From Caballeronia telluris (GTDB lineage Bacteria; Pseudomonadota; Gammaproteobacteria; Burkholderiales; Burkholderiaceae): a stretch of DNA of 64,000 nt. Under the pieces are notes generated by a model. It was given only the letters and a program-made list of their open reading frames with translations. It searched no databases and was not told the origin of the DNA. Position numbers and translations under genes: made by a program. The stretch is taken from contig NZ_FCNZ02000004.1 in assembly GCF_001544495.1 (NCBI RefSeq), positions 1-64,000 on the forward strand, in the 5' to 3' direction. Within the stretch, counting starts at the first letter, position 1. Every line of letters starts with the position of its first letter. Of the stretch, positions 11,040 to 47,330 are shown piece after piece.

Positions 11040-11146
11040 CAGGCATCGAAAGCAAGCGGGTTGAAAAATAGACGCCGCAGCGCCGTCTTATCGGATGAGG
11101 ACGCGCCTTCGGACACCACGCGCCCATGAAAGAAGGGAGTCGGACG

Positions 11147-15257: not shown

Positions 15258-15280
15258 CGCGCGGGTTCGAGAGAGACGAC

Positions 15281-16096: not shown

Positions 16097-17602
16097 TCAG
16101 GCCGCCTGCTTGGCCGACGGCAGCCGCGAGACCAGCCGCAACGACACGGTCAGCCCTTCGAGCTGGTAGTGCGGACGCAGATAGAACGTCGACGTGTAGT
16201 AGCCCGGCGCGCCCGCCACTTCCTGCACCTTCACTTCGGCGGCCGCGAGCGGCTTTTGCGACTTCGTGTGCTCGGACGAATTGGCGGGATCGCCGTCCAC
16301 GTATTGCGTGATCCACTTGTTGAGCCACGTCTCCATGTCCGAGCGCTCCTTGAACGTGCCGATCTTGTCGCGCACGATGCACTTCAGGTAATGCGCGAAG
16401 CGGTTGCATGCGAACAGATACGGCAGGCGCGCGGCGAGCGCCGCATTGGCGGTGGCATCCGGATCTTCGTACTCGAAGGGCTTTTGCAACGACTGCGCGC
16501 CGATGAACGCCGCGAAATCCGAGTTCTTGCGATGAATGAGCGGCATGAAACCGTTCTTCGCCAGTTCCGCCTCGCGCCGGTCCGAGATGGCGATCTCGGT
16601 CGGGCACTTCATGTCGATGCCGCCGTCGTCGGTCGGAAAACTGTGCACGGGCAGGCCTTCGACCGCGCCGCCCGACTCCACGCCGCGGATGCGCGAACAC
16701 CAGTTGTAGAGCTTGAACGAACGGTTGATGTTCACCGCCATCGCATACGCGGAATTGGCCCACGTGTACTTGGTGTGATCGGCGGAACCGGTGTCTTCCT
16801 CGAAGTCGAATTCGTCGACGGGCTCGGTGCGTGCGCCATAAGGCACGCGCGCGAGAAAACGCGGCATCGCGAGTCCGATATAGCGCGCATCTTCCGACGT
16901 GCGCAGCGAGCGCCAGCTTGCATACTCCGGCGTGCCGAAGATCTTCGTGAGATCGCGCGGATTGGCGAGTTCCTGCCACGAGTCCATCTGCAGGAGGCTC
17001 GGGTCGGCCGCAGCGATGAACGGCGCGTGCGCGGACGCCGCGATCTTCGATATTTCGCCGAGCAGTTCGACATCGGGCGGCGTCTGATTGAAATAGAAGT
17101 CGCCGATGAGCGTGCCGAACGGCTCGCCGCCGAGCTGGCCGTATTCGTGTTCGTAGATCTGCTTGAAGAGCGGACTCTGATCCCATGCGACGCCCTTGAA
17201 GCGCTTTAGCGTCTTGCCGAGATCCTTCTTCGAGATGTTCATCACGCGAATCTTCAGCATCTCATCGGTTTCGGTATTGTTGATGAGATAGTGCAGCCCG
17301 CGCCACGAGCCCTCCAGCTTCTGGAAATCCGGGTGATGCATGACCTCGTTCACTTGCTCGGTCAGCTTCGCGTCGATCTCGGCGATCATCGCCTGAATCG
17401 AGCGGATCGCATCGCCGGAGATGATCTTGGTCTGCGAGAGCGCCTGTTGCGCGAGCGTTTGCACCGCCGTCTGCACGGCGGTTTTGGCCTCGTCGCTCTT
17501 CGGCCGGAACTCCTTGTTCAGGAGCGCGGCGAGATCGTTGCCTTCGAGCGTCGCGCCCTGCAGTTCGGGCTTCGATTCGGACGATTGAGGGATGTCGGAC
17601 AT
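16097..17602 (-). CDS. tssC: T6SS large sheath subunit TssC
   Basis: TssC (VipB) forms the contractile sheath with TssB. The 501-residue product is the family length. It has WRGLHYLINNTETD, KRFKGVAWDQSPLFK, GTLIGDFYF, FLARVPYGART, FPTDDGGIDMKCPTEI and a C-terminal LEGLTVSLRLVSRLP. It is the last gene of the long minus-strand run, 57 bases after tssB. Confidence 0.96.
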   Translation of the reverse strand: MSDIPQSSESKPELQGATLEGNDLAALLNKEFRPKSDEAKTAVQTAVQTLAQQALSQTKIISGDAIRSIQAMIAEIDAKLTEQVNEVMHHPDFQKLEGSWRGLHYLINNTETDEMLKIRVMNISKKDLGKTLKRFKGVAWDQSPLFKQIYEHEYGQLGGEPFGTLIGDFYFNQTPPDVELLGEISKIAASAHAPFIAAADPSLLQMDSWQELANPRDLTKIFGTPEYASWRSLRTSEDARYIGLAMPRFLARVPYGARTEPVDEFDFEEDTGSADHTKYTWANSAYAMAVNINRSFKLYNWCSRIRGVESGGAVEGLPVHSFPTDDGGIDMKCPTEIAISDRREAELAKNGFMPLIHRKNSDFAAFIGAQSLQKPFEYEDPDATANAALAARLPYLFACNRFAHYLKCIVRDKIGTFKERSDMETWLNKWITQYVDGDPANSSEHTKSQKPLAAAEVKVQEVAGAPGYYTSTFYLRPHYQLEGLTVSLRLVSRLPSAKQAA

Positions 17603-17659
17603 GGTCGTTTCCTTTCAGGCGATGTCACGCGCGCGGGCTGTCCCGGCGTGTCGCGGCGT

Positions 17660-18181
17660 TCACTGAGCGGCCGGCGCGGCGCTGTCGGACGGCGGATGCG
17701 TGACCGTGGCGAGCGTCTTGAGCAGCGCGGGATCGTCGAGCACCCGGGCGATCAGTTCTTCCGCGCCGGTCTTGCCGTCCATGAAGATGACGAGATTGGC
17801 GAGCTGCGTACGTGCTTCGAGCAGCTTCGAAAGCGCATCGACCTTGCGCGCGACGGCGGCCGGCGAGAAGTCGTCCATGTTCTCGAACGTGATGTCGACG
17901 GCGAGATTGCCCTCGCCCGTCAGCTTGTTCTGAACCTGGAACGCGACGCGCGGATGCATCGCCTTCATGCGGCTGTCGAAGTTGTCGATGTCGACTTCCT
18001 GGAACTTGCGCTGGTCGACGGGCGGCAGCGCCTCGGCGGGCTTGCCGGAGAGATCGGCGAGCACGCCCATCACGAACGGAAGCTGGACCTTCTTCTCGCT
18101 GCCGTACGTTTCGACGTCGTATTCGATCTGCACGCGCGGCGCGCGGTTGCGGCCGATGAATTTCTGACTGCTGGTTGCCAT
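17660..18181 (-). CDS. tssB: T6SS small sheath subunit TssB
   Basis: TssB (VipA) is the small sheath protein and ClpV recognition partner. The 173-residue product contains IGRNRAPRVQIEYDVET, KKVQLPFVMGVLADLSG, FQEVDIDNFDSRMKAMHPR and DFSPAAVARKVDAL, all highly conserved. ATG 18181 follows AAGGAGG closely. The frame is open further upstream but without family similarity. Confidence 0.96.
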   Translation of the reverse strand: MATSSQKFIGRNRAPRVQIEYDVETYGSEKKVQLPFVMGVLADLSGKPAEALPPVDQRKFQEVDIDNFDSRMKAMHPRVAFQVQNKLTGEGNLAVDITFENMDDFSPAAVARKVDALSKLLEARTQLANLVIFMDGKTGAEELIARVLDDPALLKTLATVTHPPSDSAAPAAQ

Positions 18182-18249
18182 GACGCCTCCTTCGCGTGAG
18201 CGCGGGCTACGCTCTGAAGACGATTGACGCGTGCGGGAATTGAAAAGCC

Positions 18250-19494
18250 TTAAGTCGTTGCATGCAGAAGGCGCTGCTGACGCCATGCGGGCGCGGCGCA
18301 ATTGAACAGCGCCGTGCCGGGGCGAAGCAGGCACAGGTGGCGCGCGGCGGCCATGCGCGGGCGCTGGTAGCCGTCCTTCAATACGTCGATGCAGTGCGCT
18401 TTCGATGGCGGTGCGCCCGCCAGATAGCGTGTGCCGCTTTGGAAGCGCGGCGCGTTCGTCTGCAACCATGCGGCGATTTTGTCGGCGTCGGGCCATGGGG
18501 CGCCGTCGTCTTCGTCCATGGCGACGTTAGGGTCGCTTGGGTCGTCGGTCGGGCCGGCGGGCGGGTGCTCCGGCGGCTTGCGGTCGAGGTCGAGCCAGGC
18601 GAGATCGGCGCCCGTGATGAAGCTGAAGCTTTCGCCGGCGAGGCGGGCGTAGCGGTCGTCGGACATGAGGCCGATCAGCCAGGGCACGTAGCGAGGGTCG
18701 CCTCCGTAGCCGACTGCGCGGATCAGGATGCGTTTGCTTTTTCGTTGCGTGGCGATGACTTCGAGCAAGCGTGGGACGTCGGCCGATGGCAGCGACATCG
18801 CGGCGAGCGCGGCGGCGTCGGGGCGTGACGGAGCGAGCTCTGTCAGCACGTTCAGCGATGCGCCTCGGTCGCCGAGCAGCAGCCCGGATTGCGCGGCGTG
18901 GAAGCGGCATGCGTCGTCTTTGTCGTTCAGGCTGTCGATGCAGGACGCGAGCAAGTCCACGCGGCCGATCTCACCCGCGCATTGCAGCGCGCGAGCGCGG
19001 ACGTCGTCGTTCTCCGAGGTGATGGCCGTGTCGAGAAAGCGTTTTGGGTCCACGCGATGCAGCGCGCAGGCTGCGAGGCCGGCGAGTTGCGCGGCGGGTT
19101 CGTCGCGGGCGAGCAGCATGCCGACCGTTTCGCCGAGGCGGCTCGCGGACACCCAGCCGAACGCCGAATGCAGGCCGCGACGGGCGTCGGGAAGCGCTTG
19201 CGCCAGTGCGATGAGTCGCAGGAGGCCTGGGTCCGAACGCGCTTCGATGCAGCCGATGGCGGCGGTGAAGAGCTCGCCCCTGCCGGGGCGATCGAGTGCC
19301 TGCATGCTGAGTTGCGCGCCGACGCGGCCGGCTACGGCGATGCCGTCGAGATGCGCGGCAATGCGTTCGTCGAGGCGGGCGAGGTGCTTGAGTTTGACGT
19401 GCGGGGCGCGGACGAGGTAGCTGCGCGTGTTGCGCAGGCAAGCGGCGTCTTCGAGGTGTTGGTGGAGGATGGAATAGACGGGATGACAGTCCAC
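18250..19494 (-). CDS. T6SS-associated TIGR02270-family HEAT-like protein
   Basis: The 414-residue product resembles TIGR02270 proteins, a family found almost only in T6SS loci. The pattern is helical-repeat: VYSILHQHLEDAACLRNTRS near the start, repeated AAL/LAA helices such as RARALQCAGEIGR and RFHAAQSGLLLGDR, then FSFITGADLAWLDLD. It starts with GTG (19494). Its job is unproven; the repeat architecture suggests a scaffold or adaptor. It sits between the effector cassette and tssB in the same transcription direction. Confidence 0.8.
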   Translation of the reverse strand: MDCHPVYSILHQHLEDAACLRNTRSYLVRAPHVKLKHLARLDERIAAHLDGIAVAGRVGAQLSMQALDRPGRGELFTAAIGCIEARSDPGLLRLIALAQALPDARRGLHSAFGWVSASRLGETVGMLLARDEPAAQLAGLAACALHRVDPKRFLDTAITSENDDVRARALQCAGEIGRVDLLASCIDSLNDKDDACRFHAAQSGLLLGDRGASLNVLTELAPSRPDAAALAAMSLPSADVPRLLEVIATQRKSKRILIRAVGYGGDPRYVPWLIGLMSDDRYARLAGESFSFITGADLAWLDLDRKPPEHPPAGPTDDPSDPNVAMDEDDGAPWPDADKIAAWLQTNAPRFQSGTRYLAGAPPSKAHCIDVLKDGYQRPRMAAARHLCLLRPGTALFNCAAPAWRQQRLLHATT

Positions 19495-20463: not shown

Positions 20464-20496
20464 TGGCCCACCTCGCGATTTGGTCTTGCAACCGTT

Positions 20497-23605: not shown

Positions 23606-23618
23606 GAGTCGGCCACGT

Positions 23619-24086
23619 TCAGTTGAGCTGCACCGAACCGCCCTTGATGCGGTTCACGCCCGACGATCGGCTCGACACATACGTGCCGCGTATCAGCACC
23701 TTGCCCGCCTTCGTCAGCGTGATGCTCGCCTGCCCGCAACGCAGCACGATCTCGTCCTTCGCCGTGACGACGAGCCGCTGTCCGTCCGCATCCGCTTCGA
23801 CTTGCGCGGGCGCTTCGTCGAGCGGCCAGGTTTCATCGGCCTGCAGGCAGCCGACGATGATCGGCCGCATCGGATCGCCCGCTTCGAACGTCAGCAGCAC
23901 TTCACGGCCGATATGCGCGCCACGCAGGTCGGGAATCGTGCGCGCGACGAGCGCGGCGTCGCCGGGCTGTCCGGCATACACGACGAGCGGCCGCGCGCCC
24001 TCTCCGCTGAATCCGATCAACGCACCGATGCGCACGCCGTCGATGACCGGTATCGACGCTGGCTGCATGAAGTCTCGTCCGCTCAT
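23619..24086 (-). CDS. DUF6484-like protein with VgrG-type OB fold
   Basis: ATG 24086 follows GGGAG and gives 155 residues. The central part (PVIDGVRIGALIGFSG, then GREVLLTFEAGDPMRPIIVG) mirrors the VgrG OB-fold block GQEVIVDFLEGDPDRPIITG. The C-terminus is short beta-strand sequence (DEIVLRCGQASITLTKAGKV, then VNRIKGGSVQLN), like the start of a VgrG beta-helix. It could be a mini-spike or spike-docking piece for the PAAR-like effector encoded downstream. An upstream in-frame start (24140) is less likely. Confidence 0.65.
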   Translation of the reverse strand: MSGRDFMQPASIPVIDGVRIGALIGFSGEGARPLVVYAGQPGDAALVARTIPDLRGAHIGREVLLTFEAGDPMRPIIVGCLQADETWPLDEAPAQVEADADGQRLVVTAKDEIVLRCGQASITLTKAGKVLIRGTYVSSRSSGVNRIKGGSVQLN

Positions 24087-24144
24087 CACGCTCTCCCAAG
24101 CCTCACGCTCAAGAGACGAACGAAGCCGCGTCAGTTTCAAAGCA

Positions 24145-25155
24145 TCACGGCTCCCGCTTTCCGGCGATCAAATGAATTTGCGCGAGACTGTCGGGCGCGA
24201 GGTCCTGCATCACGGCGAGAAAATCCTTGCCCATCAGCCCGCGCGCGCGACGAATGAGCAGCGGCGCGGGATTTGTCGGCTCGGTGCGTTCGAGAAATGC
24301 GCACACCGCATCCAGCAAGGCGATCGCGTCCTCGCGCGTCGCAAGCGCGCCGAGGCGCGCGGGCGCGCGATGCTCCACTTGAGCCTCTTCTTCCGGCACC
24401 GAAGCGGCGGCCGCGACTGGCGCCACCGCGCTGAACTGCACGGCGACGTACCGCGCCGTCGCCATCATTGCGTTCAGCAAAGGCGCATGCTCGGCGCCGA
24501 GCTTTTCCGTCATGCAGTCCGACAGGGCCTGCACGGCGCGCGGCAGATCGAGGCCTTCGGCGAGCGCGTCGGGATCGTGGGCGAGCGCATCGGCGAGCAT
24601 GCCCGCCACGCGCGGCAGGGTCGCGGCGCTCGAACCGTCCGGCGGCGCGATCTTGCCTTGGGCGACCAGGAGGTCACGGACCGTGAGCCGCTCGCCATGC
24701 ACGCGGCACACCTCGCATTCGCGCAGATCGTGCAGCAGGGTTTCGGCTTCCGCGAAAGGCGTATAGGCGTCGGCAAGCGGCGCGAGCGCGTTGACGCGCA
24801 GCGCGGGGTCGTTGCCATCGTCGTGATCGAGCGGCGGATAAAGGTGCTCCCAATAACGCTCGAAAAGGCCTGTCAACACGCGCACTCCCGCATGAAAACC
24901 CGCAAGACCGTGCACGTGCGACGCCGCGCGCGTATAAGCCACGGCGATACGCAGATCCTTCGATCGCGACAGCAGCGCCTCGGCTTGCTCCATGACGTCG
25001 GCCCAGGGCGGCGGCTCGGTGAGCGTGTCGAACTGGCGCTCGGGCATGCCGCGCGCGAGTGACTCGAATTCGAGAAACGCCGCATCGTATTCCAGATCGA
25101 TGCCGGCGGGCGGCATCGTCTGAGTCGGCGCGAGCAGCGGTTCAACGTCGATCAT
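24145..25155 (-). CDS. tssA: T6SS assembly protein TssA
   Basis: TssA organises baseplate and sheath growth. The 336-residue product has the ImpA N-terminal signature (DLEYDAAFLEFESLARG, PPPWADVMEQAEALLSRSKDLR, GLFERYWEHLYPPLD) and a shorter C-terminal domain. Its ribosome-binding site (CGGAG) lies immediately after the tpsA stop; the intergenic gap is 11 bases. It is therefore almost certainly co-transcribed with the two-partner secretion genes. Confidence 0.93.
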   Translation of the reverse strand: MIDVEPLLAPTQTMPPAGIDLEYDAAFLEFESLARGMPERQFDTLTEPPPWADVMEQAEALLSRSKDLRIAVAYTRAASHVHGLAGFHAGVRVLTGLFERYWEHLYPPLDHDDGNDPALRVNALAPLADAYTPFAEAETLLHDLRECEVCRVHGERLTVRDLLVAQGKIAPPDGSSAATLPRVAGMLADALAHDPDALAEGLDLPRAVQALSDCMTEKLGAEHAPLLNAMMATARYVAVQFSAVAPVAAAASVPEEEAQVEHRAPARLGALATREDAIALLDAVCAFLERTEPTNPAPLLIRRARGLMGKDFLAVMQDLAPDSLAQIHLIAGKREP

Positions 25156-25166
25156 CGCGACTCCGT

Positions 25167-28100
25167 TCAGAATTCACCGCAGCCATGCTGACCGTTGACG
25201 ACCAGACAGTTGTTCAGATTCGGCCGCGAGCGCACGCGCTTCCATTCGGCGGCGAGCGTGTCGGCCGCGCCTTCGGCCTCCTGCAGTGCGAGGATCGGCT
25301 GGTTGGTGCCCACGCAGATGTTGACGCCGCCCAGATTGCTTTCGTAGACGAAGCTGTCTTCCTGCGCCGTGAAGAGCGGCTGCAGGCCGGAACGGTTGAA
25401 GACACCGCCGTTCGCGAGCGGGTCCTGCACCGTGAGCGTTCCCGGGGTGACGACCACGTTGTAGCCCGTCGGCGACGAAAACGTGCCGCTGATCGGATAC
25501 GTCCCGCCGGGCGACTCCGTCGTCGCGGGCGATCCAAGCGGCCCCGCAGCCAGAGAATTGCCCTGTTGATCGCCTCTCAGGAGCCCGCTGACCGTGAAAC
25601 CGAACGGGCCGTTCGCGCTGCCCCGGCTGCGGGTCTGACCGCCGATCGTAACGGCCAGCGTCGGCCGCTCGGCGTACACGAAGTGGTTGCTGTTGCCGGG
25701 CACGACCGCGAGCGACCGCAGGCCGTTCCAGCTGCAAATGCCACCGTAGACGCAGCCGTAGAAGTTGGGCAGCGCGCCGCCGGGATCGATGCCGCCGCGG
25801 TTCTCCTGCTGATCGCGACTCCGGACCCACACGCGCCATCCGTTGCCCGCGCTCAGCGTGCCGCCCGCCGCGTTATCGAGGACGACGTTCTGCATGACGA
25901 GGTCGATGCTGCCGCCCGCGCTCAGGTGCGTCGGCGAACCCATGGAGCCGAGCGACACGCGGCCGTTCTCGGAAATCGCCGCGAGGTTGCCCGTCACGGT
26001 CGATTGCGTGCCGTCGATCGTCGCGGCCCTGCCGGTTGCCCCGTCGAAGCCCTGCGCGGAAACCGGCCCGATTGTGAAACCGTGGGACTCTTTGAAACTC
26101 ACGTCGTGTGCGCCCGCGAGGGCGAGCGTGTTCACGTCGTTGCCGGCGTCGGTAAGCGTGAAATCGCCGCCTCCGGCGAGCAGCAGCGACTGCGCCTGGA
26201 TACCGCCCGGATCGGTCACGATGCCGCTCGAAGCGAGCGCGAGCGTCTTGCCGGGCAGGGAGATGCCCGACGGCAGGTCGATGCCCTGACTGCCCGCGCC
26301 GGTGTTCTGGAGCGTCAGGCCGGTCGCGACGGCGGGACGTTGCGCGCAGGCCGAGCCGCCCTCGCACGGGCCCCGGACCGAGATGTGCCCCGTTTGCGTC
26401 GATGAGCCGAGCACGAGTGTCTGGAGGGTGGTCGAGAAGGTCTGGTAGGTCGCGGCGTCGATGGACAGGCCCTGCGTCGCGTTTGTGCCGAACAGCGTGA
26501 TGGGCACGGCGTTTTGCGCGGTGACGTCGAAGGTCGACGGGTCGACGGATGCCGGCGAGATGAAGAGCGATCCGCCCTGCGCGTCGATCGACTGCGCGGC
26601 GCTGCGGCCGATCAGGCTCGTGGCGGCGCCGTTGTTGGACGAACGCATCGTGACGAGTCCTTGCGGGCCGGTGCTGATCGAGAACGGTCCGGCGACCAGC
26701 CCCGAGTTGGCTGGCAGCGGCACGGCGCCGTAGGCAATGCCCGCGTCGGCGGTGGTCGTCGAGCCGGCGAGTGAAACGGTGCCGCCCGGCGCGCTCGCGT
26801 TGATCGAGCCGCTGAGCAGCAGCAGGCCGTAGGTAGGCGATGGCGTGCCCGTGCCGGTGTCGGTGATTGCGCCGCGTAGGTCGATCGGGCCGCCCGTGGT
26901 GGTGATCGACGAACCGTCGAGAAGCGCCACGCCGACTGCGCCGGCGCCGCTGCCCGTACCGTAGACGCGGATCGCGCCACTGGTGGTCGTAAGTTGCGAG
27001 GGGCCCGGCTGCAGGGCCGCGGCGGTCTGCGAGTTGCGAACGAGAACGCCGCTACCCGGCGTCGATGTCGGTACGTGGGCGCGTCCTGCGAGTTCGATGC
27101 CGCCACCGCCGGCGAGGAGTCGTGCGTCGTCGATATCGACGCCCGCGGTCTGCGGCACGCCCGCGTTGTACGCCGGCGCGACGCCGTGAATCGTGATCGA
27201 GCCATCCGTCGTTTGCGCGGACGTCGCGCGCGCGTCGATGTCGGCGTCGGCCACCGTGACCGATGAGCCGCCGTATCCGCTCGCCGTGGCGCCGGTGCCG
27301 AGCGTCACGTTGCCTCCGTTGGTCGAAAGCCCGATGCGCACGCCCGGACTCTCGCCCCGGTAGCCGTGAATGGCGATGCGATTGCCCGCATCGGCCTTGA
27401 TATCGAGCGGACCGCCGGGCGCCGAGATGTTGCCAGCGAAGATCACGGTATCCGCCGCGTTCAGCGTGAGCGTCGACCTGCCGGGCGAGGTCTTGACGAG
27501 GGGATCGGCCACGGTAATCACACCCGTGCCAGGCGTCCCGGTTCCGGCGAGCGCGGTCACGCTCGTATTCCCGGCGGGCGTCACGATGCCGCCGGAGCCG
27601 ATCTGCGTCACGGTTTGCGTGGCGTTGTCGAAGGAAGCGAACGTAACCGGCGTGGCTGCCGACTGCGGCGAGCTGCGGAAAGTGCCGGCGATGCTGAAAT
27701 TTCCGGTCCCGACGACGGTCGCATTGCCGCTGTTGACGAGCGCGAGCGTGGAAAACACGTTGGCCCCGTTGGTCAGCTCGAAGGGACCGAGGCCCGTCAG
27801 CGTCACGATTCCTGCGGTAATGCCTTGCGCGCCCTGCGTCACCGGTCCGGCGGATGCGAACGTCAGCTTGCCGGGCGTGTAGGCGCCGCCCCGCGACGCC
27901 TGCACGGAAAGGCGGTTGAGCAATGCGATGCCCTTGCTGCCCGTGCCCTGGTTTTCGAGCGTGAGGTTGTTGTAGATCACCTGCGCCGGCGAAGGACATC
28001 CCCGGTAGTTGCACGCGTTCACGGCAATCTGCCCGGTATGGCTCGTCGATCCGATCACGACCGTATCGATGCTCGACGAAACCGCGCCGAGGATCGACGG

Positions 28101-31100
28101 CCCCACTGTGAACCCGCCGTTCAGGCCCCACACATTGATCGTCTGGGCGTCGTCATTGACGATCGCGAAGTCGGGACCGACCTTGCCCGGCACGAACACG
28201 ATCGTGCCCGAAGGCGCAGAGAAGAACGCGTTGCTATCGGAGAACACGGTGCTTTCGCCACCGGCGTTATCCGCGCGCACGATGATCGTGCCGGTCGAGC
28301 CGGCCGAAACCGTCGTGTCGGAGAAGAGGATGGCGTTGGCGTCGGCCGGCGTCGATCCGGTGAGCGACACCGTCTGTCCAGGCGCGCTCGCCTGGACGTT
28401 CACTGCGTCGAGCGCCAGTCCGTACCCGTAGAAACTGGCGTTGGCGTTCTCGCCGCCACGGATGTCGACGGAGCCGGCCGCCGAGCTGACCAGGCCCCGG
28501 ACGGGCGCTTGACCGTCGCCGTTTCCCGGCGTGCCGGCCAGCGCCACGCCGCTATCCACGTTGCCGATGCCGAAAATCCGTACGTTGCCGTTCGCGTGAA
28601 TGCCGAGATTCTGACTCGCGTTCATGCCCGTGACAACGACGCCTCCGGCGGGAGCCACTCCAGGCGGCGCCACGCCGAAGATCGACAGGTTGCCCGTCGT
28701 CGCGCCGACATCCGACGACTGGATAACGACGCCGCCAAAATGATCCACGGTGCTGGTGTCCCTGGGCTGCCCTGCTGCACTCGTGCCGTCGATGGTGACG
28801 TCGCCGCCGCTCGACGTGAGCCTCGACGTCGCAACATAGACACCCGCGCCGCCAATGGTCGACCGGGCGCCGCCCGCCGTCGCGCCCCTTCCGGTGATGT
28901 CCAGCGCGCCAGCCGAGGTGATCGTCGCGTTGGAGATGACCACGCCGTCGCCGACGCCGGAGACCGTCGTCGTCGTCGTCGCCGCTCCCGCCACCGCGCC
29001 GGTGCCGTCGATGCTCATCGCGCCGCCCGTGATGATCCGGGAGCCCGCGATGGCGACGCCGTCGCCTTGAACCGAAAGCTGCGCGGCCGTGCTGCCGGCG
29101 GCCGTGCCCCGAATGGTGACGGCGCCGCTCGTCGAGTTGATCGACGAGTTGTTGGACATTTGCACGCCATCGCCCGAGAGCGCGCCCGGCCCGAGACCGG
29201 CCGTCGTCGTCGGGTCGCCGGTCGCGCCGAATCCGGTGACGCTGACCGCGCCGCTCGTCGTCCTGAGAGCCGTGTTCGTGATCGACACGCCCGAGCCGAA
29301 CGCGTCGACATAGTCATAGTTCGACGCCTCGGGCGAAAAATAGCGGGTGCCGCCGTGCCCCTCGATCGTGATCGCACCGGAGCCGGACGTCATTGTCGAA
29401 TTGGACAGACTCACGCCCGTGTCGAACGGCGACGACCCGCGGATCGTGATGCTGCCGCCCGTGCCAGTGCCGGTTCTGCCGACCGTGGTGTCGATGGCCG
29501 CGTAGGTGAGTTCCACGCTTGCCGCGTTGCCCGGCGACGCCGCCCCGTTGATCACGAGATTGCCGCCGTTCGTCGCGATGCCCGGATGCGTCGGCACGCC
29601 GCCGACGACCATGCCGTTCACCGTGACGGAAGCGGACGGATTCCTGCCCTCCACGTTGGCATTGAGATTGACGTCGAGCCTGCCGGTATCGGCCAGTCCC
29701 TGCGCCACGCCGATCTGCGGCGTCGTAAAGACCAGAGCCGCGCCGGTCGACGCATAGGTGTCGATGTGAATCGAGCCCGCGGCGTTCAGCGTGAGTGCGG
29801 CGTTCCTGTCGCCGCCCTTCGTGATGTTGGTCAGCACCTTGATCGTACCGAGGTCCGTTCCGCTCGCCCCTGTGTTCACCGTCACCGAGACGCCCTGGTT
29901 GAGCTGGCCGGTGATCTGCCCGACGCCAAGCCGCGACGCAGATCCCGTGGGAGAGACGGGGCTGAAGGTCCAGCCCGTGGTATCCGATGACGTCGCGAAG
30001 TCGAGCGCCGAACTGTCGGCGACGATATCGACATCGTGCGGATCCAGCACCCACGTCCCCCCCACCCCATGCAGCGCCGACGCGTCGATCTCCGCGCCCG
30101 CCACATCCAGGAACCGCGCCGACGTCTCGATCAACCCGCCGTTGCCGCTTTGTGCACCGCCTTTCGCGGTCAGCATCCCGTAGACGCGCGCCGCGTTGGT
30201 TCCGTAGATGACGACATTCCCGCCATTGCCGGTGACGAGCGCATCCGCCCTCACCTGCGCGCCCGGCCCCATCCACACTGCGTCCGCGTTATGGATGTCG
30301 GCCTCCTTGCCCGCCGCGCCGCCGCCCACGCGCACGCGTCCGCCGCCCGCAGCGCCGCTCGCGTCGATGCGCGCGCCGTCGTGCACCGCGACCTGATAGC
30401 CCGTGACGTCGATGTTGCCGCCCTTGAGCCCCACGCCGCCCGTCGCATCGACGCTGCCCGCCACTTCCGTCACGCCCGCCGCGCCGCCGTCGAGCACGAT
30501 GCGCCCGTTGCGCTCCGCGACGCTCTGCGCGCGCACCGTGCCCGTCTGGTTCAGCACGGTGGCGGCGAGCGCGTCGGCGGTCTGCACCGACATCAGCACC
30601 TGCCCGCCGTCCGCCGCCAGCACGCCGGAGTTGCGCGCGAGCGCCTGCGCCGCCGCGCCGTTGACCTTCAGCATGGTGAGGCCGTCGCCGGCGAAGTCGA
30701 GCGTAATATCGCTGCCCGCGCCCATCGCGACGGTGCCGAGCTTCGCGCTCACCGTGCCGCTGTTGTCCACCTGCGCGCCGAGCAGCGCGACCGTGCCGTG
30801 CTCGCCGGCCGTGATCGTGCCTTGATTGACGACCTGCCCGCCCGCCTGCGGCGACGCGCTCGCGAAGCGATATTTGCCCGCAAGAAAATCGCGGTCCGAA
30901 ATCCCGAGCGTCGACGCGACGAGCGATCCCACGTTGACCGACGCGCCGCGCGCAAACAGCACGCCCGCCGGATTGACGAGAAACACCTGTCCGTTGGCGT
31001 TCATCCGTCCTGCGATCGTGCTGGCCTGACTGCCCACCACGCGATTCAGCAACACGGCCTGCGCCGAAGGTTGCGCGATGTTCACCGTCTCGTTGGCCCC

Positions 31101-31379
31101 GATCGAAAACGAGTTCCAGTTGACGATGCCCTTCGGCGTGCCTTGCGTGATCGCCATCGTGTTCGGAGCGGGCGTGCCGATGGTCACGTTGCCGCTCGCG
31201 ACCTGCCCGCCGAGCGGCAGTGCGAGTGCGGGCGGTGCGACGAAGAGCGCGATCACCGGCAACAGCGACGGAACGATCGCCACGCCCGCATGCCGCGCCG
31301 CGCGCCGGGCGAGCCGCCTGATCGCACGCTCCCATGCCCGGCGATGCTTGCGGGTCCGAAGGCAGGTGATGTCGCTCAT
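25167..31379 (-). CDS. TpsA: giant two-partner-secreted filamentous-hemagglutinin-type exoprotein
   Basis: ATG 31379 follows AGGAG and gives about 2070 residues. An extended signal region (LLPVIALFVAPPALA) leads to the TPS domain (PLGGQVASGNVTI, GIVNWNSFSIG, then NPAGVLFARGASVNVGSLVAST near 136). The rest is a long beta-helix of Gly/Thr/Ser-rich repeats (GSITIRG, GDVTIDGT types). Near the C-terminus comes an MBG-like segment (LAVTIGGQTRSRG), and the protein ends with a Cys pair (C2058, C2067). It would be exported by the neighbouring TpsB to the surface as adhesin or exoprotein. No toxin domain (for example a CdiA-type C-terminus) was seen. Confidence 0.88.
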   Translation of the reverse strand: MSDITCLRTRKHRRAWERAIRRLARRAARHAGVAIVPSLLPVIALFVAPPALALPLGGQVASGNVTIGTPAPNTMAITQGTPKGIVNWNSFSIGANETVNIAQPSAQAVLLNRVVGSQASTIAGRMNANGQVFLVNPAGVLFARGASVNVGSLVASTLGISDRDFLAGKYRFASASPQAGGQVVNQGTITAGEHGTVALLGAQVDNSGTVSAKLGTVAMGAGSDITLDFAGDGLTMLKVNGAAAQALARNSGVLAADGGQVLMSVQTADALAATVLNQTGTVRAQSVAERNGRIVLDGGAAGVTEVAGSVDATGGVGLKGGNIDVTGYQVAVHDGARIDASGAAGGGRVRVGGGAAGKEADIHNADAVWMGPGAQVRADALVTGNGGNVVIYGTNAARVYGMLTAKGGAQSGNGGLIETSARFLDVAGAEIDASALHGVGGTWVLDPHDVDIVADSSALDFATSSDTTGWTFSPVSPTGSASRLGVGQITGQLNQGVSVTVNTGASGTDLGTIKVLTNITKGGDRNAALTLNAAGSIHIDTYASTGAALVFTTPQIGVAQGLADTGRLDVNLNANVEGRNPSASVTVNGMVVGGVPTHPGIATNGGNLVINGAASPGNAASVELTYAAIDTTVGRTGTGTGGSITIRGSSPFDTGVSLSNSTMTSGSGAITIEGHGGTRYFSPEASNYDYVDAFGSGVSITNTALRTTSGAVSVTGFGATGDPTTTAGLGPGALSGDGVQMSNNSSINSTSGAVTIRGTAAGSTAAQLSVQGDGVAIAGSRIITGGAMSIDGTGAVAGAATTTTTVSGVGDGVVISNATITSAGALDITGRGATAGGARSTIGGAGVYVATSRLTSSGGDVTIDGTSAAGQPRDTSTVDHFGGVVIQSSDVGATTGNLSIFGVAPPGVAPAGGVVVTGMNASQNLGIHANGNVRIFGIGNVDSGVALAGTPGNGDGQAPVRGLVSSAAGSVDIRGGENANASFYGYGLALDAVNVQASAPGQTVSLTGSTPADANAILFSDTTVSAGSTGTIIVRADNAGGESTVFSDSNAFFSAPSGTIVFVPGKVGPDFAIVNDDAQTINVWGLNGGFTVGPSILGAVSSSIDTVVIGSTSHTGQIAVNACNYRGCPSPAQVIYNNLTLENQGTGSKGIALLNRLSVQASRGGAYTPGKLTFASAGPVTQGAQGITAGIVTLTGLGPFELTNGANVFSTLALVNSGNATVVGTGNFSIAGTFRSSPQSAATPVTFASFDNATQTVTQIGSGGIVTPAGNTSVTALAGTGTPGTGVITVADPLVKTSPGRSTLTLNAADTVIFAGNISAPGGPLDIKADAGNRIAIHGYRGESPGVRIGLSTNGGNVTLGTGATASGYGGSSVTVADADIDARATSAQTTDGSITIHGVAPAYNAGVPQTAGVDIDDARLLAGGGGIELAGRAHVPTSTPGSGVLVRNSQTAAALQPGPSQLTTTSGAIRVYGTGSGAGAVGVALLDGSSITTTGGPIDLRGAITDTGTGTPSPTYGLLLLSGSINASAPGGTVSLAGSTTTADAGIAYGAVPLPANSGLVAGPFSISTGPQGLVTMRSSNNGAATSLIGRSAAQSIDAQGGSLFISPASVDPSTFDVTAQNAVPITLFGTNATQGLSIDAATYQTFSTTLQTLVLGSSTQTGHISVRGPCEGGSACAQRPAVATGLTLQNTGAGSQGIDLPSGISLPGKTLALASSGIVTDPGGIQAQSLLLAGGGDFTLTDAGNDVNTLALAGAHDVSFKESHGFTIGPVSAQGFDGATGRAATIDGTQSTVTGNLAAISENGRVSLGSMGSPTHLSAGGSIDLVMQNVVLDNAAGGTLSAGNGWRVWVRSRDQQENRGGIDPGGALPNFYGCVYGGICSWNGLRSLAVVPGNSNHFVYAERPTLAVTIGGQTRSRGSANGPFGFTVSGLLRGDQQGNSLAAGPLGSPATTESPGGTYPISGTFSSPTGYNVVVTPGTLTVQDPLANGGVFNRSGLQPLFTAQEDSFVYESNLGGVNICVGTNQPILALQEAEGAADTLAAEWKRVRSRPNLNNCLVVNGQHGCGEF

Positions 31380-31410
31380 GTCGAACTCCTGTTTGAACGT
31401 TTTCCTGTCG

Positions 31411-33198
31411 CTAGAACGACTTCGACACCTGCACGTACACGCGCGGCAACTTGTCGTCGCCGGTGGTGTCGGCGCGGGTCGTGCGCCAGGCCATGCTCGC
31501 ATCCACGGTGAGGCCGTAGGGCCCGTTCCAGAACAGCCCGAGCCCGGGTCCGCTGCGCGTCACGGTGTTGGCGCCCTGTTCGGGAATCGAGCGCGCGTTG
31601 TAGCGCCCGACGCCGATATCGAAGAACGCGGACAGCGTGAGCGTCGGGATGACTGCGTAGCGGAACGCGGCCGTCGCGATCAGCCCTTCGTCGACGACCG
31701 ACTCGGAAGGCGAATAGGCGCGCACCGCGCGCGGGCCGCCGAGCGTGATGCGCGACGAGCTGTCGAGGTTCTGGTTGGCCCATTGCCCCGACACGCCGAC
31801 GAACATGCTGACCTTCTGCGTGATCGCGTTGAGACGGTTCGCCTGCATCGTCACGCGCACGCTGTTGCCTTGCGTGTTGCGCCCGAACGGACTCTGGTCG
31901 ATCTGCTCGGCGAGCGACGAATCGATCTTCAGATGCGCGAACGCAAGCTGGATGTCCGCGCTGTTGAAGCCGCCGCCGAGCAAGCTGTCGCGGCTCTCGT
32001 AAGACAGCCCGACGCTCGCGACAACGAGCTTCTGCGGATTGTCGAAGTTGACGCTGTCGATCTTGTCGGTCAGCGCGCGGTATTCGAGCGCGCCGCGCAA
32101 GAGCAGGTTCTGGCTGCGCGAGCGGATGAGCGGATGCGAAACCGAGGCGGTCACGACATCGGCATCGCCGTGCGCATTGAGCGAGGAGAAATCCTGCCCG
32201 AGGTAGTAGTACAGATGCGAATACGCCACGCCCACGCGCGTGCCGTTCGCGTCGACCGGTGCGTCGTAGCCGATGCGCCCGTACAGCGTGTCGGCGCGCT
32301 CGGCGGCGAGCAGGTTCACGTCGAGGTTGTCGCCGATGCCGAACGGCGACGCGAGCCGTCCCACCGCACCCAGCCGCCAGCGCCCGGCGGCGGCCGCGCC
32401 GTAGTTGTCGGTGGCGAGGGCGAAATCCCAGCGGCGCGAGGGCTCGACGGTCACGCTCAGATCGACGGTGCCCGGCGTGCTGCCCAGTTCCAGCGCCGAG
32501 GTCACGCGAATGCCGGGCAGATCCGAGAGCAGCAGCATCGTGCGTTCGAGTTCGCCCTGCTTGAGCGGCTTGCCGGGCTCGATCGCGGCGAGCCGCGCGC
32601 GCACGAGCGATTCCTTGATCGGCGCGCCGGGGACGATGGTCAGCCGCACCGCGCCGATCTTGCCTTCCAGCACGGTGAAGGCGACATCGCCATTGGTCAC
32701 GTCCTGCGGCGGAATCACGACCTGCGCGAGCGGATAACCGCGATCGCGATACGCTTGCGCGATGAGCGCGCCCATCGCGTTGAGATCGTCGATCGACACT
32801 TCCTGACCGATCTTGCCGGAGACGAGCGGGAGCAGCATGTCGGACGGCAAGGTCTCGTTGCCCGTAAGACGAATGCTCTTCAACGTGAACTTGCGGCCTT
32901 CGGGCACGGCTGCCGGCGCCGCGGGTCGCGCCGGCAGCACGGCCGCGCCGCCGGGCGGCGGCGCGGCAGGTGTCGGGCGCTGTTGTTCGTTGAGCAGCGT
33001 GCCGGCGCTCGGAATCTGCTGCGTGCCCGGCATCGGCACTTGCTGCGCCCACGCCGTCAGCGCGCCCGCGCACGCGATGCCCGCTCCGGCAAGACCGGCC
33101 GCGCGCGCGAAACGTCGTCCACGATGGGGGCGCGCGCGCGCACCGGTACGTTCGCCGGGGCGCGATGCGATGAGTTCGGTTTTCATGGCGTCGTTCAC
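31411..33198 (-). CDS. TpsB: ShlB/FhaC/HecB-family outer-membrane transporter
   Basis: TpsB pores thread TpsA proteins across the outer membrane. The product is about 595 residues. A signal peptide (LAGAGIACAGALTAWA) is followed by a Pro-rich linker, two POTRA domains (KFTLKSIRLTGNETLPSD; VAFTVLEGKIGAVRLTI) and a beta-barrel with GDNLDVNLLAAE, LGGPRAVRAYSPSE (family motif near GGxxxVRGY) and a terminal Phe (VQVSKSF). GTG 33198 is preferred because GAGG lies 8 bases upstream; ATG 33186 is four codons later with no clear site. It is 31 bases before tpsA. Confidence 0.92.
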   Translation of the reverse strand: MNDAMKTELIASRPGERTGARARPHRGRRFARAAGLAGAGIACAGALTAWAQQVPMPGTQQIPSAGTLLNEQQRPTPAAPPPGGAAVLPARPAAPAAVPEGRKFTLKSIRLTGNETLPSDMLLPLVSGKIGQEVSIDDLNAMGALIAQAYRDRGYPLAQVVIPPQDVTNGDVAFTVLEGKIGAVRLTIVPGAPIKESLVRARLAAIEPGKPLKQGELERTMLLLSDLPGIRVTSALELGSTPGTVDLSVTVEPSRRWDFALATDNYGAAAAGRWRLGAVGRLASPFGIGDNLDVNLLAAERADTLYGRIGYDAPVDANGTRVGVAYSHLYYYLGQDFSSLNAHGDADVVTASVSHPLIRSRSQNLLLRGALEYRALTDKIDSVNFDNPQKLVVASVGLSYESRDSLLGGGFNSADIQLAFAHLKIDSSLAEQIDQSPFGRNTQGNSVRVTMQANRLNAITQKVSMFVGVSGQWANQNLDSSSRITLGGPRAVRAYSPSESVVDEGLIATAAFRYAVIPTLTLSAFFDIGVGRYNARSIPEQGANTVTRSGPGLGLFWNGPYGLTVDASMAWRTTRADTTGDDKLPRVYVQVSKSF

Positions 33199-33266
33199 TG
33201 CAGCATCCTCATCGGGCCGGCGCACAGCGTCGCGCCGGGACGGCGCCGGGCACGAGGGTCCGGCGT

Positions 33267-35522
33267 TCAGTGGGCGACCGAGAGCCGCCAGTTGCCCATC
33301 AGGTCGAACGGCGCCCAGTAGAACGGATGGGCGTACCTGCTGTCGGCCAGCACGGCGAGCTGCGCCTCGCGCATGGCGTCGATCGCCTCTTCGCCCTTGG
33401 TGAGCGAGCCGTAGAACGTGCGCATGGTGAGCGAGGTCGAATCGTCGGCGACAGGCCACATCGACACGAGCAACGCCGACGCGCCCGCATAGAAGAACGC
33501 GCGCGTGAAGCCCATGATCTCGTCGCCGCGCTCGATGCGCCCGAGCGCCGTCTCGCACGCGGAGAGCGTGACGAGCGCCACCGAATCGAACTTGAGGTTG
33601 TAGATGTCCTGCGCGAGCATCGGGTCCGGGCCGTCGGCCGGCTGCTTCGCGGGCGCGAGCAGCACGCGCGAATGCAGCGGATCGACCGTGTCCGCCTGTG
33701 CGTGCGTCGCGACGTGGACGATGCGGCCCGCCGGTGCGTTGTCGCTGAAGGTCTTGCGCGTGACGTCGCTCTGCACGAAGGCCTCGTGCTGCGCGAACAG
33801 CGGTCCGATCGCGCGCACTTCGGCCTCGGCGCCCGGCAAGTCGAATTCCGGCGCGATGCGCGGATTGCCGAACGCGACGAGACTGCTCGCGATGCGCTGC
33901 TGGCGTCGCACGAGCTGCACGGCGACGCTCGCCGAAGGCGCGAGCGCGAGCGCATGCCGCTGGATCAGAAAGCCCTGCGGATTGCGAAGCGCCTGAAACG
34001 GCATGTAGTGCAGCGCGCCATTCGGCACGATGATGAGCCGCTCGCCGGGACGCACGCCGAGCGGCTGGATGAGCAGCGCGTCGAGCTTCGTTCCGTAGGT
34101 GAGCGCTTGCGGACGCCCGCGGATGATCGCGTTGCGAAAATCGCCGACGGCCAGCGTCATCTCCTTGCGTGCGATCGGCAGCGTGAAGCCCTGGATGCCG
34201 TCCGGGCGCACGACCCACGCGATCATCTTGTCGGGAAGACCGTGATATTCGACGATCGCCTCGCCTTGCCTGAGCGTGCCGCGCACGTCGTCGAGCGAGA
34301 GCGTGCGGCCGTTCAGTTGAGCCTCGTCGACGTTGGCCGCGAGCCGGTTGCGCACGACATCGAGCAGCGCGCGGCTGCGGCTTCGCTCGGAGAGCGTCCA
34401 CGCGAGCGGATAGTCGCCATCCTCGACGACGAGCGAAATCGTCTCCTCGAAGACCGTCTGCGTATCGGAGAAGAGTCCGGTCTTGAACTCGTCGCTGCGA
34501 AAGCGCGCGCGGATCTTCTCGGAGTCGTCGAGTGCGGCGAGCCACGCGTCGCGGGCCTGCTGGCGCTTGCCGAGCGCGAGATACGCGCGGCCCATGCCTT
34601 CGTGCGCCCACAGACTGTCGTAGCTCGCGTCGGCGCCGCCCGCGCTCGCGCTGGCGGCGAACGCGTCGAGCGCCTCCTGTGGCTTGTGTTCGGCCAGCAG
34701 CAAATTGCCTTCGATGCGCTTCCTGAGCGGCGCCAGCAAGCTTTCCTTGACGCCGCTCGTCTGTTCGAAGGTGGCGCGCGCGCCCGCGGCGTCGCCGGAT
34801 GCGATCTGCGCATTGGTGATCGACAGGAGCACCATCGGGCGATAACGCGCGGAAGCGCTTTCCAGCGCCACCCGGTATTGCGCGAGCGCCGCCGCCGGAT
34901 CGCCGCGCCGGGCCGCGATGTCGCCCAGCACCTTGTACGCGGGCGCCAGCACCTGCTCGGGATTCTTCGCGCCGGCGGCGATGGCTTCTTTCGCGTAGCG
35001 TTCGGCGTCGTCCAGATCGCCGGCGTAGCTGTAGGCGATCGCCAGATCGCGGCGCGAGAGTGCGGCGAGGTTGGCGTTGTCCGTCTGCCGCGCGACGACG
35101 AGCGCGCGCGACGCCGCTTCGATGCTGTCGCGGAAATCGCCGCGCTCGGCGGCCGCCACCGACATGCTGCAGTACGCGTAGCCGTCGAGCTTGACCTGAT
35201 CGCGCGCGAGCAAAAGACGCCCTTCCTGCGACAGCGTGGCGATCGTTTCGGCATCGCGCACGCGGGCTTCGGCATCGCGCGCGACGGGCGTGAGCGCCGC
35301 GTCCGGCGGCGTGGGCGCGGTCTGGGCGATTTTCGCGGTCTGGGCGGTTTTCGCGCCCTGCGTGCTTTTCTTTTGCGCGCCTTGCGCATGGACGCCAGGC
35401 GCGGCGAGCGCGAGCGCCGCAAACAGCAGGAACGCGAGGCCGAGCCGCCTTGCCGCGCTGCCGTCAAGTGCGCAAGCGCCGGCCGCCACACGGACCGACG
35501 CGATCTGCCCGATCGGTTTCAC
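33267..35522 (-). CDS. secreted TPR-CHAT protein (caspase-like protease)
   Basis: I chose GTG 35522, which follows GAGGAG by 8 bases and gives a sensible signal peptide (RRLGLAFLLFAALALAAPGVHA). The frame is open to 35663. Of 751 residues, about 100-370 are TPR-like helices (RDLAIAYSYAGDLDDAERYA, GDPAAALAQYRVALE). About 480-748 form a CHAT domain with both catalytic residues: His in VHVATHA (about 604) and Cys in LSACETA (about 655), followed by GEEAIDAMREAQL. CHAT proteins are clan CD peptidases. It heads the run leading to TpsB, TpsA and tssA, so a role in maturing or releasing TpsA in the periplasm is plausible but unproven. Confidence 0.85.
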   Translation of the reverse strand: MKPIGQIASVRVAAGACALDGSAARRLGLAFLLFAALALAAPGVHAQGAQKKSTQGAKTAQTAKIAQTAPTPPDAALTPVARDAEARVRDAETIATLSQEGRLLLARDQVKLDGYAYCSMSVAAAERGDFRDSIEAASRALVVARQTDNANLAALSRRDLAIAYSYAGDLDDAERYAKEAIAAGAKNPEQVLAPAYKVLGDIAARRGDPAAALAQYRVALESASARYRPMVLLSITNAQIASGDAAGARATFEQTSGVKESLLAPLRKRIEGNLLLAEHKPQEALDAFAASASAGGADASYDSLWAHEGMGRAYLALGKRQQARDAWLAALDDSEKIRARFRSDEFKTGLFSDTQTVFEETISLVVEDGDYPLAWTLSERSRSRALLDVVRNRLAANVDEAQLNGRTLSLDDVRGTLRQGEAIVEYHGLPDKMIAWVVRPDGIQGFTLPIARKEMTLAVGDFRNAIIRGRPQALTYGTKLDALLIQPLGVRPGERLIIVPNGALHYMPFQALRNPQGFLIQRHALALAPSASVAVQLVRRQQRIASSLVAFGNPRIAPEFDLPGAEAEVRAIGPLFAQHEAFVQSDVTRKTFSDNAPAGRIVHVATHAQADTVDPLHSRVLLAPAKQPADGPDPMLAQDIYNLKFDSVALVTLSACETALGRIERGDEIMGFTRAFFYAGASALLVSMWPVADDSTSLTMRTFYGSLTKGEEAIDAMREAQLAVLADSRYAHPFYWAPFDLMGNWRLSVAH

Positions 35523-35672
35523 GAATGCGCTCCTCGAAGACCGTAGCCGCGCACCGGCGCGAGCGGCGCGCTGCCGCCGCGGTGCCACTGCTAGACGAAA
35601 CATCGCGCCGGATTTGAAAAGCGTCCCGGGATCATTCGTTTGCTGCTGTGTTGGGAGAGACACAGATCAATC
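35523..35672. promoter_or_regulatory. Divergent promoter region between the CHAT and tssJ operons
   Basis: These 150 bases separate the long minus-strand run from the plus-strand tssJ run and should contain both promoters. No consensus promoter pair was clear by eye. GGGAGAGA at 35653-35660 is close to tssJ and may serve its translation. Confidence 0.4.
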
Positions 35673-36218
35673 ATGCAAACCATCGGTTCGATCGCAAGCC
35701 GCGCGCGTTCTGCGCGTCTCGCGCGCAGCGCGGCGCGGGTCGTCTGCGTGTGCGCGCTCGTCGTCGCGGCGTGCAAATCGGCACCGCCGCCTCCGCCGCC
35801 GCCGACGGTCGTGCGCATCACCGTGAGCGCGCTCGACCAGGCCAATCCCGATCAGCGGGGCCGGCCCTCGCCCGTCGTCGTGCGCGTGTACGAACTGAAG
35901 ACGACCGCCGCCTTCGATAGCGCCGACTTCTTCACGCTCTACGCAAAGGACCAGGCGACGCTAGGCGGCGATCTCAACGCAAAGAACGAATTCCTGCTCA
36001 AGCCCGGCGACAGCCGGAGCGTCGAGGCGACCGTGCAGCCGGGCACGACATTCGTCGCGGTCGTGGCCGCGTATCGCGACATCGAACGCTCTCGCTGGCG
36101 CGCAACCGTGCCGGTGCCGCCGAACCAGACGACCGTGCTCGACGTGCGCATCGACGCGGCCGATGTCTCGATCGCCGCACACCGCGCGAGCGCGCCGGCA
36201 TCGAAGGCCGCCAAGTAA
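35673..36218 (+). CDS. tssJ: T6SS outer-membrane lipoprotein TssJ
   Basis: TssJ anchors the TssJLM membrane complex to the outer membrane. ATG 35673 gives 181 residues with a signal peptide and lipobox (LVVAAC), then a Pro-rich linker. The mature domain follows with VVRITVSALDQANPD, SPVVVRVYELKTTAAFDSADFFTLY and FVAVVAAYRDIERSRWRATV, all typical. An in-frame upstream start at 35640 would only lengthen the signal region. Confidence 0.92.
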   Translation: MQTIGSIASRARSARLARSAARVVCVCALVVAACKSAPPPPPPPTVVRITVSALDQANPDQRGRPSPVVVRVYELKTTAAFDSADFFTLYAKDQATLGGDLNAKNEFLLKPGDSRSVEATVQPGTTFVAVVAAYRDIERSRWRATVPVPPNQTTVLDVRIDAADVSIAAHRASAPASKAAK

Positions 36219-47294: not shown

Positions 47295-47330
47295 CCCCAT
47301 CGGGCGCCAGTCTCAATCTGAGGAGAGAGC

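Follow-up and report, generated by a model that had tools for sequence, protein, structure and literature searches.

Type VI secretion systems (T6SSs) need close contact, though few of them are known to bring an adhesin of their own. A precedent for an adhesin encoded in a T6SS island is TasL of Vibrio fischeri, a large surface protein that mediates the contact for T6SS killing and is described as a putative lipoprotein (PMC9040878, partial text). TslA is a TPR-containing periplasmic protein, present in most i4b T6SS clusters and needed for T6SS localisation (PMC10434147, partial text), and in Acinetobacter it is needed for T6SS assembly at cell-cell contact (PMC10564176, partial text). Two-partner secretion (TPS) offers related cases: HMW1 and HxuA are locked in their TpsB transporters by a C-terminal disulfide anchor, and the periplasmic C-terminal tail of CdrA, a TPS adhesin of Pseudomonas, is cut by the periplasmic protease LapG (PMC5422565, partial text). 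Synergy between T5SS and T6SS is treated in a review, the available part of which names no shared locus (PMC10778856).

In the open-licence literature searched, no paper was found that described a TPS fibre and a CHAT protease built into a T6SS locus. Searches joining the CHAT domain with two-partner secretion and type VI secretion, or with filamentous hemagglutinin, returned no paper, and the arrangement was the subject of no title among the top matches listed in the broader open-licence literature. The terms hemagglutinin, two-partner and CHAT domain are absent from the main texts of the T6SS papers PMC8356804, PMC5732942 (P. phymatum) and PMC11481896 (Ralstonia), and from the available part of PMC10434147 on T6SS-1 of P. 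sabiae, which does describe a TPR gene beside tssJ. The "hemagglutinin" of PMC9430734 is an epitope tag and was discarded.

In this study, we analyzed a stretch of 64,000 nucleotides from Caballeronia telluris (positions 1 to 64,000 of contig NZ_FCNZ02000004.1), referred to here as the window. The original prediction had placed genes for a TPR-CHAT protein, TpsB and a giant TpsA between tssJ and tssA, and the gene calls on the minus strand confirm this with exact coordinates. The features of the locus are as follows:

35673..36218, plus strand: tssJ, head of the divergent tssJ-tssK-tssL-tssM arm (T6SS-SciN, 1.3e-39)
35523..35672, no strand: divergent intergenic region of 150 bp between CHAT and tssJ (alignment of eight sequences)
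33267..35522, minus strand: TPR-CHAT protein, putative caspase-like cysteine protease, 751 aa, GTG start, signal-like N-terminus (Pfam CHAT, 1.5e-64, with TPRs)
31411..33186, minus strand: TpsB outer-membrane transporter, 591 aa (ShlB, 6.4e-21; POTRA_2, 1.9e-18)
25167..31379, minus strand: TpsA giant exoprotein, 2070 aa (Pfam TPS, 1.2e-36; MBG_2, 1.6e-08)
25167..25259, minus strand: conserved C-terminal tail of TpsA, last 30 aa and stop, W-x2-VR-x2-PNL-x2-C-x8-C
24145..25155, minus strand: tssA, first T6SS gene after the TPS module (ImpA_N, 1.2e-29)
16097..18496, minus strand: sheath genes vipA and vipB, 3' of tssA and on the same strand (T6SS_VipA, VipB, VipB_2)

The minus-strand genes are separated by gaps of 80 nt (CHAT to tpsB), 31 nt (tpsB to tpsA) and 11 nt (tpsA to tssA). 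CHAT opens with GTG at 35522, preceded by AGGAG, and both the start and the ribosome-binding site are kept in the window and seven relatives (leader alignment of eight sequences); tpsA starts with ATG at 31379, within a mechanically called reading frame that opens at 31502. The tpsA stop, TGA, runs directly into ACGGAG and then the tssA ATG, so that the predicted junction (same strand, 11-base gap, ribosome-binding site right after the stop) can be read from the letters. tssA is of the TIGR03363 type (167.1 bits; cut-off 160.85), and on the plus strand, divergent from CHAT, tssJ is followed by tssK, tssL and tssM. Twelve of the 13 T6SS core components were identified in the window (TssA, B, C, E, F, H (ClpV), J, K, L, M, VgrG and Hcp), and the locus is a T6SS by its core genes (tssA to tssM); TssG was not identified, the single reading frame tried (9659-11071) having no Pfam match. 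PF05860, PF08479 and PF03865 were all above cut-off, which identifies the TPS genes as a two-partner secretion (type Vb) system.

Several other features of the window were recorded. In the intergenic region (35523-35672), an 11-bp block, TGTTTCGTCTA, does not vary between the CHAT leaders of the window and seven relatives and is a possible regulatory site; it is followed by a GGCACCGC stretch. The stretch 3' of tssA (19546-24140), which as a whole gave no tblastn match in several relatives, holds DUF6484 and DUF2169 genes and encodes a 393-aa protein that weakly resembles ketoacyl synthases (E 0.01-0.04); TsmK, a T6SS protein of Acinetobacter, is described as ketoacyl-synthase-like too (PMC10564176, partial text). 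The product of 20497-21483 is PAAR-like and contains a Tox-GHH2 nuclease domain, and a 305-aa reading frame of this stretch may specify its immunity protein. Genes for a PP2C phosphatase and a Ser/Thr kinase occur in the T6SS locus (14018-16066 and 42678-45356), which suggests phospho-regulation of firing. Past the T6SS kinase (45438-48038) are genes for an MltA/3D-domain protein and a LuxR-type response regulator, and C. grimmiae, whose strain Lep1A1 has an annotated copy of the locus, has an MltA protein and a response regulator at the corresponding place.

CHAT was sought in 58 Caballeronia genomes, the home genome included, with orthologs defined by at least 61% identity. Matches were found in 24 of the 58 and orthologs in 22, and tssJ adjoins CHAT in all 22 CHAT-positive genomes, an adjacency that is not due to chance. 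In 18 of the 22, a TssA relative lies 5.8-8.8 kb from CHAT on the same contig; the contigs of four genomes (G012, G016, G018 and G022) break inside the TPS genes, and their TpsA end adjoins tssA on another contig. A search of the 58 genomes for the C-terminus of TpsA gave the same 22 as CHAT and no others, at one locus each, although in two of them it lies in two pieces. The CHAT protein closest to that of the window is from C. arationis (93%). Contigs C5, C6, C12 and C16 of the home genome encode another six TPS-domain proteins (open frames of 796-846 aa), and the TpsA C-terminus was found in none of them.

Within the family, CHAT orthologs (at least 61%) were present in 26 of 349 genomes, six of them outside Caballeronia; among 399 genomes of the order, eight matched the CHAT profile at E<=1e-60, six of these over profile parts only. 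Both searches took the best two to five candidates per genome, behind which weaker matches may be hidden. A scan of named genomes gave 73 loci from the best 80 of 545 relatives, of which 52 (L073-L124) matched CHAT at 48% or more and the remaining 21 at 26-38%; the linkage counts cover the 52 only. These 52 are hosted by Caballeronia, Paraburkholderia, Burkholderia, Polaromonas, Thauera, Pseudoduganella and MAGs. Among these 52 loci, drawn from the best 80 of 545 relatives, 49 are linked to a T6SS: T6SS genes lie inside the stretch around CHAT in 43, and in six (L098, L099, L103, L104, L106 and L120) the contig carries a VipB 12-23 kb further downstream. The three outside the count are L090 and two contigs of 5.8 and 8.6 kb (L112 and L116). 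Many of the named loci belong to the same species as genomes searched above, and the genus and named-locus counts are therefore not independent. The linkage that was to be sought in related genomes is thus conserved across genera and families, and the evidence linking the CHAT-TPS module to the T6SS is strong.

The order of the genes around the module varies. In arrangement (a), seen in Caballeronia, Paraburkholderia monticola, Polaromonas and Pseudoduganella, the J-K-L-M arm is divergent from CHAT-tpsB-tpsA-tssA-...-vipA-vipB, with tssJ not detected in the Pseudoduganella locus. tssA-vipA-vipB follow the module in a Thauera locus (L117) and two MAGs, and the J-K-L-M arm is absent within 10 kb upstream. 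In arrangement (b), found in a Paraburkholderia locus (L095), CHAT-tpsB-tpsA is followed by an opposite-strand PP2C gene and one further reading frame before tssA. In arrangement (c), found in the genome G089, the module lies about 7.5 kb past tssM, on the side of the cluster away from tssA. In a further genome, G695, 45 kb of a single contig separate the module from the nearest VipB. One genome (G585, 91% complete) has CHAT-like matches of 33-42% on two contigs, and VipB was not found in it; perhaps this CHAT type is there used outside the T6SS.

These layouts bear on the shared tpsA-tssA transcript of the original prediction. The gap between the two genes was sought at 39 loci and measured at 31, with tssA starts extrapolated by tblastn; it is 9-18 nt in 23 of the 31 and 42-153 nt in the other eight. 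Given such short gaps, co-transcription is plausible in the Caballeronia arrangement. It is not a general feature: seven of the 39 loci have no long reading frame directly 5' of tssA, among them L095, where the convergent PP2C gene sits between, and in G089 the module lies beyond tssM. Clustering is thus conserved, whereas one tpsA-tssA transcript is not. A consensus scan showed no terminator-like site at the tpsA-tssA junction of the window, but its total for the region was 8 sites against a shuffle mean of 14.0, so that this promoter/terminator scan is without power.

The layout of L095, by which no tpsA-tssA transcript is possible, is in accord with an adhesin whose role is to colonise hosts or surfaces (insect gut, plant or soil biofilm) and not to aid needle firing, and that shares only its niche with the T6SS; some carriers are insect-derived, with records from Leptoglossus zonatus and Physopelta gutta. 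However, the carriers also include Thauera, Polaromonas and one record from a human sample, which makes one shared host niche unlikely, and we regard colonisation as an improbable explanation of the locus.

The sheath protein VipB was used to follow the T6SS itself. Among the 349 family genomes, the 24 best VipB matches (at least 862 bits) all come from CHAT-positive clusters, 20 of them on the CHAT contig and four in broken assemblies. The next match, at 857 bits, is not in a CHAT-positive cluster, and the lower-scoring rows include second T6SSs of CHAT-positive genomes; in two CHAT-positive genomes (G033 and G044) a divergent VipB, at 64-67%, lies inside the CHAT cluster. The VipB tree contained 47 rows, 27 CHAT-positive and 20 CHAT-negative, the latter hand-picked (19 from the family VipB list, plus L177, whose very long branch makes its place unsure). 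Three CHAT-positive rows were left out, one with VipB missing (L051) and two too short (L109 and L124). All 27 CHAT-positive rows fall inside one 32-row group (97/96) together with five CHAT-negative rows, and the CHAT labels change 3 times on the tree versus 15.4 times in shuffles. The simplest reading of the tree would be one gain of CHAT and one or two losses, and the five CHAT-negative rows show that close T6SS relatives work without CHAT. A CHAT tree of 24 rows, made by a quick method, has the same main groups, and CHAT and VipB distances are correlated over these 24 rows (r=0.69; none of 2000 permutations reached this value, in a test uncorrected for shared ancestry). The co-inheritance of CHAT and VipB is partly shared ancestry.

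One gain with one or two losses also fits the explanation that an ancestral T6SS island acquired the module once and has kept it by linkage, the two systems being uncoupled neighbours by descent, and so does the tolerance of a 45 kb separation in G695. Against this, the clustering has survived at least three arrangements and the CHAT and VipB trees have their main groups in common; the prospects of this explanation seem slim.

The candidate dyad of the CHAT protein, His607 and Cys656, is invariant in alignments of 12 and 20 rows and is what we take to be its catalytic pair; a CHAT domain with an intact His-Cys dyad puts the protein among the CHAT peptidases. A structure model (pLDDT 82, below 50 in the loop after the catalytic Cys) had Csx29, DdvA and separase as its best PDB matches. 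A TPR-CHAT profile retrieved TPR proteins only from the solved structures, and a CHAT-only profile was therefore used, which gave DdvA, a CHAT-bearing transmembrane anti-sigma factor, as the best match (1.3e-05), followed by Csx29, with which both dyad positions are aligned. The CHAT protein is accordingly described here as a putative protease with a predicted Csx29/separase fold. The original prediction called it secreted, and the one feature that points this way is a signal-like N-terminal segment, judged by eye and present in the 50 loci listed out of 56, which suggests export to the periplasm. The LapG family (PF06035) was detected in none of the 58 genus genomes, a weak negative since the control was detected in only one of 14 genomes. 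The caspase-like releasing peptidases of polymorphic toxins were considered as a counterpart and rejected: those are domains within toxins (PMC3482391, partial text), and CHAT is a separate gene.

The target of CHAT may lie elsewhere than in the TPS pair. The TPS module could be a partner of the T6SS in which CHAT acts on the apparatus, for example by placing or stabilising the membrane complex where cells touch, in the manner of TslA, or on another envelope protein. The contact-linked roles of TslA outlined above are in favour of this, as is T6SS-1 of P. sabiae, where an operon next to tssJ begins with a TPR gene, much like CHAT (PMC10434147, partial text); in addition, CHAT is better conserved in the closer genus relatives (77-92%) than TpsA (best segments 45-67%). 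However, CHAT stands immediately upstream of tpsB-tpsA in every arrangement seen, even with tssJ and tssA elsewhere, so that it is tied most closely to the TPS pair, and TslA, whose tagged construct has 25.4 kDa, is a much smaller protein (PMC10564176, partial text). We consider this the main alternative and a possibility of some weight, if not a likely one; a fibre for contact and a TPR-CHAT protein for placement can also hold together.

The conservation profile and the C-terminal alignment give the order of TpsA as TPS domain, hypervariable middle, MBG_2 domain and C-terminal Cys tail. With gaps scored as differences, identity per 100 residues to 13 genus relatives is 75-84% over residues 101-400, 21-36% over 601-1400 and 61-68% over 1601-2000, and the last 30 residues reach a mean of 96%. 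The motif W-x2-VR-x2-PNL-[NST]-x-C occurs 25 residues from the TpsA end in 76 of 88 loci, and in 77 when that of G695, with one substitution, is included; the other 11 appear, by their coordinates, to be cut off before the tpsA stop. These counts are partly circular, as W, VR, PNL and the first C are themselves part of the pattern. Loci from the same genome are redundant, and the distinct 30-residue tails number 40; in every one of them the second Cys is fixed, as is a Leu placed four residues ahead of the Trp, although the pattern requires neither. Two further checks were free of the pattern, namely the genome search with the C-terminus and a search for similarity to the last 171 residues. 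The latter gave 110 database proteins, of which 84 end in the full motif, six have close variants (VR to LR or VH; PNL to PNI or PNLL) and 20 are without it; one is from Paraburkholderia phymatum and others are from Variovorax. Two proteins of Variovorax paradoxus (P0084 and P0086) are TpsA proteins with a related C-terminus, and P0086 has the tail motif. The C-terminal profile was matched by 18 of the 399 order genomes; in 16 of these the match stops in the MBG region, and it extends through the tail only in the CHAT-positive home genome and the likewise CHAT-positive G695. Three of 229 genomes of the class match, and the tail is reached in the home genome only.

The model of the last 330 residues of TpsA is beta-rich and mostly confident to about residue 245, followed by a low-confidence stretch (the stalk), a short helix at 301-310 and a tail with pLDDT below 50. 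Foldseek gave no match for it in the PDB at E<=0.001. At the sequence level, the tail has a Cys pair spaced x8 at a fixed position, and this suggests that TpsA may be tethered by its C-terminal Cys-x8-Cys tail in the manner of HMW1 and HxuA.

TPS export and the neighbourhood of a contact weapon would also fit a dual-weapon locus in which TpsA is a CdiA-type toxin of contact-dependent inhibition (CDI). This candidate was rejected as extremely unlikely: the C-terminus is near-fixed and not polymorphic, Pfam and profile searches found no toxin domain in TpsA, and the 11-nt gap to tssA has no room for an immunity gene. The locus thus differs from CDI systems in having neither a polymorphic C-terminal toxin nor a downstream immunity gene.

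Taken together, we tentatively favour a T6SS-dedicated, tethered, two-partner-secreted adhesin with its own envelope protease, a reading that we hold at a little under an even chance. The locus would represent a T6SS subtype with its own TPS adhesin, in which TpsB exports the TpsA fibre. The TpsA tail, consisting of the flexible stalk, the short helix and the Cys-x8-Cys loop, would stay in the periplasm and plug TpsB, and we propose that the fibre is tethered in this way, could keep another cell, a neighbour or one of the host, within needle range, and may take its partner specificity from the hypervariable middle. The TPR-CHAT protein, if periplasmic, might act on the TpsA tail or stalk and so govern retention or release, as LapG does for CdrA. 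Our guess is that cutting of the tail would bring release of this kind rather than maturation, because a conserved segment sits just before the plug. Clustering kept through at least three arrangements counts for coupling of the module to the T6SS; the 45 kb separation in G695 and the CHAT-negative rows inside the VipB group count against the favoured reading.

A more specific form, which we find doubtful, is that the disulfide-plugged fibre grabs the target, the needle fires, and TPR-gated periplasmic CHAT cuts the tail on contact or firing. The cut site would then be the E/D-W-x-R-V-R segment just before the plug, which we take to resemble the E-x-x-R consensus of separase. Against such a site, His replaces the first Arg in one of the 40 distinct tails and the second Arg in a database protein (P0074). 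With a conserved TPS fibre and protease in one T6SS group, contact control by the weapon's own locus becomes testable. The locus also points to what an exported TPR-CHAT protease may do in the cell, and the C-terminal motif of TpsA is a signature for finding more such systems.

Compared with the systems described previously, TpsA would be like TasL in being a large surface protein of a T6SS island, with the difference that TasL, as described, is not two-partner-secreted and has no dedicated protease named in the available text (PMC9040878). The layout of HMW1 and HxuA, a fibre, a flexible stalk and a cysteine plug, resembles by description the predicted C-terminus of TpsA, which would be exported in the same way (PMC5422565, partial text); unlike them, TpsA has a tail with its own motif and a locus in a T6SS cluster, with a CHAT protease. 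CdrA and LapG offer the likeness of a TPS adhesin with a periplasmic protease, but the CHAT protein resembles caspases and separase, contains TPRs and shares a locus with its TPS pair. TslA shares with the TPR-CHAT protein the TPRs, the periplasmic place (presumptive for CHAT), a gene in a T6SS cluster and a link to cell-cell contact, whereas it is small and, by description, no protease domain is named for it in the available texts (PMC10434147, PMC10564176). Csx29 of the type III-E CRISPR Craspase has the same TPR-CHAT architecture, is among the best fold matches and has an aligned dyad; it works with the CRISPR effector Cas7-11, whereas the CHAT protein of the window begins with a signal-like segment and is encoded among secretion genes.
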